Shown here: piece after piece, positions 561 through 7,013 of the stretch
How positions within the stretch are numbered: position 1 is the stretch's first letter
How the letters are laid out: the number at the start of each line of letters is the position of its first letter
NCBI GenBank assembly: GCA_022562795.1
Contig: JADFOP010000052.1
Location: forward strand, 1 to 12,319
DNA length: 12,319 bases
From: Nitrospinota bacterium
GTDB taxonomy: Bacteria > JADFOP01
Direction: 5' to 3'
The notes under the pieces: generated by a model
Database searches by the model: none
Told to the model about the DNA's origin: nothing
The model's input: the letters and a program-made list of their open reading frames with translations, nothing else
Made by a program: the position numbers and the translations under genes

Positions 561-669
561 CCTCCCAGCGTGTCCCCGCTATGGTAGCCTAAGGATAACC
601 CCTGCAATGGAAGCCCGTATTACAAGCCACATCTGGACGATGGAGAAAATCTTGGGAGGAGGATAGGTA

Positions 670-828
670 GTGCCACAGGTCAAACTTTGTAAGTACTGCC
701 AGGAACCCATCGATGAAAGGGACGATGAATTTGTTCTTTTGAACCCTGAGGCAATGGGCGATAATGACAAGCCCCTCCCGGAAGCACTGTGGATTTATGC
801 TCACGTTAGGTGTCATGTCCAGGATTAG
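670..828 (+). CDS. Small CxxC...HxxC putative zinc-binding protein, 52 aa (first of a tandem pair)
   Basis: A 52-aa frame starting with GTG (670-672) and ending at TAG (826-828). The start is supported by a strong Shine-Dalgarno, GGGAGGAGG, within 6-15 bases upstream. The protein has Cys7-x2-Cys10 in the context CKYCQEPID, followed about 35 residues later by His45-x2-Cys48 near the C-terminus (YAHVRCH). The CxxC...HxxC spacing is like one zinc knuckle of a LIM or treble-clef fold, so a single zinc ion is the likely ligand (inference). The next gene, 33 bases downstream on the same strand, repeats the pattern with CHYCREPIW and YHVPC, so the two look like diverged tandem duplicates. Function is unknown. 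Small proteins of this sort are common on phages and mobile elements, where they often bind nucleic acid or partner proteins, but nothing here proves that role. Confidence 0.6.
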   Translation: MPQVKLCKYCQEPIDERDDEFVLLNPEAMGDNDKPLPEALWIYAHVRCHVQD

Positions 829-861
829 GAACGTAGGAAGAAAGGGTAATCTTTAATTCAA

Positions 862-1065
862 ATGGCGATTATGACTAACTTAAACAACGATATTGGCCTA
901 TGCCACTACTGTCGAGAACCCATCTGGGAGAACGATAGCTACGTCCAGAGGGGTAGTCTGGAAGGCAACGAGATAGAACAATACCATGTCCCATGCTTCA
1001 GAGAAGTGGAACCGAAAGGGAAGCATGGATTTATGGGTTCATTTTTTTTAGATGATGCGAAATGA
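862..1065 (+). CDS. Small CxxC...HxxC putative zinc-binding protein, 67 aa (second of a tandem pair)
   Basis: 67 aa with Cys14-x2-Cys17 (LCHYCREPIWENDSYV) and His42-x2-Cys45 (QYHVPCF), then a C-terminal tail with a Phe-rich stretch (FMGSFFLDD). It shares CxYCxEPI, an acidic stretch and the Y-H-x-x-C element with the preceding 52-aa protein, pointing to a tandem duplication. The start is uncertain. ATG at 862 has only a distant AAAGGG (15 bases); ATG at 871 is an alternative, and an in-frame stop (TAA 847-849) rules out a much longer protein. Translation may depend on the upstream gene. The segment is AT-rich (19 G/C in bases 841-900). The role is unknown and zinc binding is inferred from the four-residue pattern. 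Confidence 0.6.
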   Translation: MAIMTNLNNDIGLCHYCREPIWENDSYVQRGSLEGNEIEQYHVPCFREVEPKGKHGFMGSFFLDDAK

Positions 1066-1193
1066 ATGAAACATTGAAATGGGCCATCTACAATTTCTGC
1101 TGACTCAACTACATAATCGCCTTAGGAACTGACCCTTGTTTATCATTAGGTTTGATAAAATAGGGTAGCAGAGACATTGGCGGTGAATATTTC

Positions 1194-1352
1194 TTAAACT
1201 TTCTGTCCCTCTTTATATCCTTCTTTTCGTCTACATCGAGGACAGAGGCGGTTAGCCTTGCCCCAGCTGTCGAAGTAATCGCTACAGCCAAGGCATTTCA
1301 GGCGTACCGTTCCTTGTTTGGGTTTGGGTTGTGGCTTTTTTATGTAATTCAT
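1194..1352 (-). CDS. Small four-cysteine zinc-ribbon protein, 52 aa
   Basis: A short minus-strand frame: ATG at 1352-1350, TAA at 1196-1194. The protein opens with a Lys/Pro/Gln-rich basic arm (MNYIKKPQPKPKQG), followed by Cys20-x2-Cys23 (LKCLGCSDYFDSW) and Cys37-x2-Cys40 (NRLCPRCRRKE), and ends in a basic tail. The KCxxC...F-S...NRxCxxC layout resembles small zinc-ribbon proteins often found on phages, plasmids and integrative elements, which I know as a recurrent pattern rather than a characterised family. Its basic arm suggests nucleic-acid binding (inference). The ribosome-binding site is modest (GGGAAG just ahead of ATG), but an extended -10 box lies about 50 bases upstream. An in-frame TAA seven codons before the ATG limits any N-terminal extension. 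A different minus-strand frame over 1109-1291 overlaps it and has no recognisable motif. Confidence 0.6.
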   Translation of the reverse strand: MNYIKKPQPKPKQGTVRLKCLGCSDYFDSWGKANRLCPRCRRKEGYKEGQKV

Positions 1353-2772: not shown

Positions 2773-3305
2773 CAGACCGGTTTTGCGGGAAGACCCATGA
2801 GAGAAAACAAGAGGGTGAGGATCAACGCTTGGACTACCCAGCCGATCACGCAAACCCCAACGGCGCGCCACGTGCTCGTATAGTCCAGAGCTTGCCTGAC
2901 CGCGATTATCATCGCGACGAGCATCCAGATCGAGGCGACCATCATTACGATCCCCGCAAGAGGCGGGATGACGCCCAGGATGCGAATCAACCCGGGGGAG
3001 CTCGAAAAGCCGATGGTTCGCAACAGCTCGCCGTGATCGGCTTTCGTCTGCGGCTCGGCAAGGAGTTTCGTCCCGATAAAGTAGGTGAGGTAGGCCCAGA
3101 TATACCACGCGACGAGGGCGACGATTGTGCCCACGACAATCCCGCCGACCCCTCCTCTTCCAAAGGTTCCGACTCCGGCCGCTATGCTGGAGAGAACGAC
3201 AACGCCCGTTGCCTGGCCCATCGCCCCCTTGTCGGCCTCGACCTCCTCGTAGAGGTTGACGTCGAGCTTGGCGGCGCGGATGATACGATCCATAAGAGGA
3301 TTCAT
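2772..3305 (-). CDS. Yip1-domain-like integral membrane protein, 177 aa
   Basis: A polytopic membrane protein with a short cytoplasmic start (MNPLMDRIIRAAKLDVNLYEEVEADKGA) resembling the N-terminal lead-in of bacterial Yip1-family proteins. Hydrophobic stretches lie at about residues 33-49, 53-78, 105-137 (long enough for two passes) and 147-171. The loop at 79-104 is polar. Yip1-family proteins in bacteria are of unknown function, and this assignment rests on the overall pattern, so 'multi-pass membrane protein' is the safe call. ATG at 3305-3303 is preceded by AAGGG seven bases upstream. Its stop codon overlaps the start of the SDR gene by one base (TGATG), making a two-gene unit; a membrane protein paired with a reductase could tether or supply it (inference). 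The leader contains a triple 10-bp repeat. Confidence 0.7.
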   Translation of the reverse strand: MNPLMDRIIRAAKLDVNLYEEVEADKGAMGQATGVVVLSSIAAGVGTFGRGGVGGIVVGTIVALVAWYIWAYLTYFIGTKLLAEPQTKADHGELLRTIGFSSSPGLIRILGVIPPLAGIVMMVASIWMLVAMIIAVRQALDYTSTWRAVGVCVIGWVVQALILTLLFSLMGLPAKPV

Positions 3306-3407
3306 CGTCGTACCCTTGTTACGCTAAAGGATTCAAAGGATCGGGGGGAGACGGGATCCGTCCCGGCGAAGGAGCTTGGACGGTACGGGATCACCCCCGG
3401 CGGCGGC

Positions 3408-6284: not shown

Positions 6285-7013
6285 TTAGGTTCGCACCAAA
6301 TCCTTAAGCCCCTGCTCGATGGCGTCAATATAATTGCGAGCCGCTTGAAGCGGGTCAGAGGCATAAATAATCGGGCGGCCGACAACCACATAATCTGCTC
6401 CATTTCTAATAGCCATGGCCGGTTCTGAGTGCCTCTTGTGGTCGTCCGTCGTATCCGCCTCCAACCGAATCCCAGGAGTAACTATTATGGTTCTCTCTGG
6501 GACGACCTTCTTAATGGCAGGAGCTTCCAAGGGCGATGTAATGACACCGTCACACCCCATTTTGACCAGGTGCTCGACTCGCTGAAGGACAAATTCTTCC
6601 ATCGGCATATCAACGCCATATACTTCTTTCAGGTCGGATGCGTCCCAGCTGGTAAGGGCCGAGACAGCTAGGAGGCTGAGATCGTGAGAGCCCCTTGCCT
6701 CAATAGCCGCTGCCACATTCCTTGCCGTTCCATGGACAGTTGTAAAGCTGACCCCGCTCTCGGCGATAGCTCGGACGGCGCGGCCGACCGTTTCTGGGAC
6801 ATCGTAAAGCTTTAAATCGAGGAACACCTTCTTGCCAAGGTCCATGAGCCGTCGGGCAAAGTCCAATCCGGTTTGAAGGTGTAGAACGTGTCCTATCTTG
6901 AAAAAGGATACAATCTCATTGAGCTTTTCAACCAGCCCAAACGCCTCATCAGGGTCTGGTATGTCGAGGGCTACGATAAGGCGGTCTTTTGCTCTTAGGT
7001 TATCCCCAGCCAC
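6285..7013 (-). CDS. pyrF: Orotidine 5'-phosphate decarboxylase, 242 aa
   Basis: Decarboxylates OMP to UMP, the last step of de novo pyrimidine synthesis. A TIM-barrel enzyme with LIVALDIPD (12-20), Lys39 in FFKIG, the catalytic Asp66-x-Lys68-x2-Asp71 array (DLKLYDVPETV), SALTS (118-122), TPGIR (179-183) and GADYVVVGRPI (205-215) at the phosphate site. Length is normal for the bacterial group. Translation starts at GTG (7013-7011), preceded by an ideal AAGGAG eight bases upstream. Unlike its neighbours the gene is only moderately GC-rich: bases 6301-6360 have 33 G/C, compared with 44 in 10201-10260 of dapA. It has its own promoter at 7086-7116 and no shared unit with folK upstream. Recent acquisition or different codon pressure could explain the composition. 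Confidence 0.95.
   Translation of the reverse strand: MAGDNLRAKDRLIVALDIPDPDEAFGLVEKLNEIVSFFKIGHVLHLQTGLDFARRLMDLGKKVFLDLKLYDVPETVGRAVRAIAESGVSFTTVHGTARNVAAAIEARGSHDLSLLAVSALTSWDASDLKEVYGVDMPMEEFVLQRVEHLVKMGCDGVITSPLEAPAIKKVVPERTIIVTPGIRLEADTTDDHKRHSEPAMAIRNGADYVVVGRPIIYASDPLQAARNYIDAIEQGLKDLVRT

Follow-up and report, generated by a model that had tools for sequence, protein, structure and literature searches.

Mobile insertion cassettes, which have been named together with MITEs (PMC3129680), carry a passenger gene between IS-type terminal repeats without a transposase, and their mobilisation is expected to occur in trans. A related arrangement is found among the "transporter IS" elements of the IS1595 family (Siguier et al. 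2009, as cited in PMC3129680), and 8-bp repeats have been reported for an IS1595-family insertion sequence (PMC12561309). Here we analysed a 12,319-nucleotide stretch of DNA (the window). It begins contig C52 in a 2.15 Mb assembly and apparently fills that contig. Within the window lie two neighbouring small genes, p1 and p2, which the original prediction took for an old tandem duplication. It is very likely that p2 is instead the cargo of a 258-bp non-autonomous element of the mobile insertion cassette type, derived from an IS1595-family insertion sequence, and that phages of this group of bacteria also have the gene. All statements on distribution refer to three genomes of the phylum, with one congener (G001).

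The 258-bp unit and its presumed IS1595-family partner

The unit occupies positions 864..1121 of the plus strand and is bounded by perfect 10-bp terminal inverted repeats. The left repeat, GGCGATTATG (864..873, +), fits the consensus for 10 bp only, and the right repeat, GGCGATTATGTAGTTGAGTCAGCA (1098..1121, -), is 24 bp long and matches the ends of an IS1595-family element in the congener. Four loci in the congener carry p2, and these are the same as the loci in Nitrospinae bacterium AH_259_B05_G02_I21. One of them, L010 on contig C444, is complete (6300-6538), and its homology with the window runs from GGCGATTATG to CATAATCGCC, coinciding with the inverted repeats. An exact 8-bp target duplication, AATCTCAA, stands on both flanks of L010. 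The flanks of the window unit differ from each other (ATTCAAAT versus TTAGGAAC), and since a matching duplication is absent this copy is either old or rearranged. The window and L010 are the two complete copies known; a further locus, L011, lies on contig C44, and the remaining two, L012 and L013, break off within p2 where their contigs end, and their right ends are degenerate. When the window's genome was searched for an empty site corresponding to the congener insertion, the flank had no DNA match.

The 24-bp right-end motif occurred six times, at no more than three mismatches, in the genomes of the window and the congener, whereas the reversed pattern, used as a control, had no match in three genomes. 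A 2145-bp congener element (C333:60852-62996, equivalent to L048:1853-3997) has the same 24-bp repeats, with two mismatches per end, and is enclosed by its own 8-bp duplication, TTTTCGGA. Its transposase scored 202.8 bits against NF033547 (cut-off 75) and also exceeded the cut-off of PF12762. A tRNA-Ser(TGA) gene (3221-3308, -) and two more small ORFs also lie between the terminal repeats of this element. The genome of the window yielded no complete insertion sequence with the 24-bp ends, and a search for terminal repeats at other IS1595 copies, including the C7 and C18 transposases of that genome, gave no clear result. On contig C69 of the same genome, a reading frame matching the C-terminus of the transposase of the congener element ends in the 24-bp repeat. 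Because the terminal inverted repeats are perfect, the right end is shared with an IS1595-family insertion sequence of the congener, and both this sequence and the congener copy of the unit have an 8-bp target duplication, we regard p2 as the cargo of a transposase-less mini-element.

Between the end of p2 and the right terminal repeat lies a nearly invariant non-coding tail (1052..1097, +; about 47 bases), in which two positions differ between the window and L010, significantly fewer than at synonymous sites. It resembles the 3' end of an IS1595-type transposase gene, and 1 of 2000 shuffles gave as good a likeness. The tail folded no better as RNA than its shuffles did and had no Rfam match; a role in transposase binding would be a guess. 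A possible frame of 13 codons, MNETLKWAIYNFC, lies in the tail and overlaps the stop of p2. According to the mechanism that we propose, the unit would derive from an IS1595-family insertion sequence that lost its transposase gene except for what may be a 3' remnant. Supplied in trans, an IS1595-type transposase would recognise the ends of the unit and move it, producing 8-bp target duplications on transposition.

Other repeats were seen in the window. An interspersed repeat at 13-94, which may be one end of a further mobile element, is also present in the congener (L011, L044 and L010), and units of the CATTGTAGGGACACCCC type form direct and inverted repeats at 1726-1837.

The p2 gene and its predicted product

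Both ORFs are located on the plus strand where the original prediction had put them, p1 at 670-828 (52 aa) and p2 at 862-1065 (67 aa), with 33 bases between, although the start of p2 needs revision. GCG-ATT, the codons upstream of ATG871, are part of the terminal repeat, and no ATG stands at 862 in the congener copy, so the true start is probably ATG871 and not ATG862. With this start p2 spans 871..1065 (+) and encodes a CxxC-x24-HxxC protein with ligand codons at 901-903, 910-912, 985-987 and 994-996, and the left terminal repeat would provide its start codon. It is the only substantial sense-strand ORF within the unit. Neither a Shine-Dalgarno sequence at the usual distance nor a convincing promoter was found 5' of p2, so that its expression is putative.

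The Cys/His pattern described earlier is present in both proteins as LC-K/H-Y-C-Q/R-EPI-x-E-x-D ... H-V-x-C. We were likewise unable to assign a family, as neither protein had a convincing match in Pfam, PHROGs or NCBIfam; the sole Pfam entry was C1_1 (E 0.066, below the cut-off), and the PARP-type profile PF00645 was unmatched. A LIM domain has two zinc sites with eight ligands, whereas p1 and p2 have four ligands each. The interleukin-7 receptor (E 0.2), the sole result of a sequence search of the PDB, was rejected.

The structural model of p2 (mean pLDDT 74.5, built on four close sequences) has the order of a treble clef, that is a zinc knuckle, a hairpin and a helix carrying HxxC. In Foldseek searches of the PDB its best matches were PARP-1 fingers and ribosomal treble clefs, which were weak (E ~0.3), and the overlay with a PARP-1 finger covered 48 residues at Z ~4, all structural matches being below Z 5. 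The best viral matches in BFVD were small phage proteins (probability 1.00, E ~0.03). The model of p1 was poorer (69.5), with mixed structural matches. Taken together, the models suggest that both proteins may adopt a treble-clef-type zinc fold, and p2 is predicted to be a treble-clef finger binding one zinc, with its ligands in the order seen in PARP-type fingers. Because it resembles PARP-type CCHC fingers and small uncharacterised phage proteins, the best guess at the function of p2 is that it binds nucleic acid. A zinc-bound, nucleic-acid-binding finger is accordingly put forward only tentatively, as the likeliest among the possible readings of the protein and a little short of probable overall.

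Origin of the p1/p2 arrangement

Upstream of p1 lies what remains of the C-terminus of an IS1-family transposase, SLRITPAMEARITSHIWTMEKILGGG (583..666, +; match 583-654), which stops 3 nt before the p1 start. A full-length relative on congener contig C266 matches NF033558 transpos_IS1 (E 1.4e-15) and PF03400, both below cut-off. The gene p1 (670..828, +) encodes a 52-aa CxxC-x34-HxxC protein; it begins with GTG, and the strong Shine-Dalgarno sequence that had been claimed for it, GGAGGAGG, is found immediately 5' of this codon, inside the transposase remnant. No p1 homologue was found outside the window in the three genomes of the phylum or in viral contigs. A "match" in a same-class genome (E 0.0016) was rejected as chance because it overlaps a longer ORF in another frame and lacks both the HxxC and the second half of the CxxC. 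In the congener the same IS1 remnant precedes a different small ORF, a relative of which is a passenger inside the IS1595-family element described above. This suggests, without proof, that p1 too may be element cargo. p1 is best explained as a small, diverged protein broadly similar in type to p2, lying beside an IS1 remnant in mobile-element debris.

Could a local tandem duplication have produced p1 and p2 as a functional pair, with the repeats around p2 being incidental? The two genes are neighbours on the same strand, and their likeness extends beyond the ligands. Searched with an HMM of the p2 family, p1 scored 15.1 bits, a value that was not reached in 20,000 full shuffles or in another 20,000 that kept the four ligands fixed, and hhalign aligned the two over 16 residues at E 2e-6 (for that single comparison). 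From this likeness we infer common descent. However, the homology of p2 with the congener ends exactly at inverted repeats that are common to an insertion sequence, and the congener carries p2 without p1. In addition, p2 is 72-88% identical to copies elsewhere and only about 30% identical to p1, and it is therefore not a recent copy of p1. The p1-p2 tandem arrangement itself was not found elsewhere in the three genomes or in viral contigs. Local duplication does not explain the pair well and appears very unlikely; what resembled a tandem pair is more plausibly a mobile cassette carrying p2 that inserted next to a similar gene.

Relatives of p2 in viral DNA raise another explanation, in which the region is nothing but a decayed prophage; p1, p2 and a zinc-ribbon gene close by would then be remnants of the phage, and the terminal repeats would delimit phage DNA and not a transposable unit. 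One viral contig (L014) carries p2 at 74% identity as an ordinary gene, upstream of a gene with a weak match to the terminase large subunit. A gene located shortly upstream of p2 in L014 is retained at congener locus L011 (72% identical DNA). L012 and L013 have long stretches in common, and L013 carries integrase and ArdC-type genes. The zinc-ribbon-like ORF of the window (1194-1352, -; 52 aa, LKCLGC...FDSWGKANRLCPRCR) also has relatives in viral or prophage-like contigs; they adjoin the p2 unit in L010, occur in L012 and L013 and are weakly recognisable in L014. Against this explanation, the left repeat and the tail are missing from the viral p2 gene, the terminal repeat is absent from the viral record, neither repeat nor tail was found in any viral contig, and the repeats match an insertion sequence that has its own 8-bp duplication. 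We consider a prophage origin of the whole region very unlikely. As to other phage sequences, the L014 terminase used as a query found only itself, and tblastn against isolate phages gave chance matches only. In L014, p2 continues without a stop into a segment that resembles a signal peptide followed by a second domain (L014:4998-5534).

It might also be argued that p2 is a non-functional fragment carried passively by the element, given that it lacks a Shine-Dalgarno sequence, that the C-terminus of the window copy is altered and that the L012 copy has a stop near its end. The substitution pattern speaks against this. The window copy and L010, both borne by the element, differ at 13.5 of 24.8 synonymous sites but at 3.5 of 104.2 nonsynonymous sites (Fisher p ~1e-9), giving a dN/dS of 0.04 despite a dS of ~1. 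Against the window copy dN/dS ranged from 0.04 to 0.10, and the Cys/His ligands are kept in all full-length p2 homologues. p2 is under strong purifying selection, and passive carriage of a dead fragment is the least credible of the alternatives considered here. The proposal of an old duplication kept by selection was thus correct in that p2 is maintained with its ligands conserved. It does not hold for the tandem duplication kept as a pair, as p2 sits in a mobile unit bounded by terminal repeats and is present without p1 in the congener.

In conclusion, the reading of p2 as element cargo describes a small phage-related gene that travels alone on a 258-bp derivative of a transposon and yet is strongly selected, in a poorly sampled marine lineage. 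Its product would fold as a zinc finger and most likely bind nucleic acid. A more speculative and rather unlikely extension is that the single-gene cassette carries a zinc-finger protein of phages back and forth between phages and the chromosomes of their hosts, where it is kept because it helps its carrier, for instance in blocking superinfection or in controlling the expression of phage genes. Such units escape routine annotation, and here one mimics a tandem gene duplication. With a conserved cargo and a conserved tail, both the role of the protein and transposition in trans are directly testable.

Comparison with known systems

Like mobile insertion cassettes such as MIC231 of Bacillus cereus, the p2 unit has a passenger gene and no transposase gene between terminal inverted repeats that match an autonomous insertion sequence, with an 8-bp target duplication at the congener copy, and it would likewise be mobilised in trans. 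Unlike these cassettes, it has IS1595-type ends and a phage-related cargo of zinc-finger type, is only 258 bp long and has its probable start codon inside the left repeat. The unit resembles the IS1595 "transporter IS" elements in sharing the terminal repeats of the congener element and in its 8-bp target duplication, and passenger genes are known in such elements from the work cited in PMC3129680; it differs from them in lacking a transposase apart from the possible 3' remnant. With regard to the protein, p2 shares the CxxC...HxxC ligand order of human PARP-1 Zn1/Zn2, and its predicted fold can be overlaid on them only weakly (Z ~4). In contrast to the PARP-1 fingers, p1 and p2 are isolated proteins of 52-67 aa, with no Pfam match and weak structural scores. 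In size and predicted fold p2 is close to three uncharacterised treble-clef proteins of phages in BFVD (A0A8S5MA84, A0A6J5L768 and A0A3G3BVJ3), although its identity with these is only about 22-25%.
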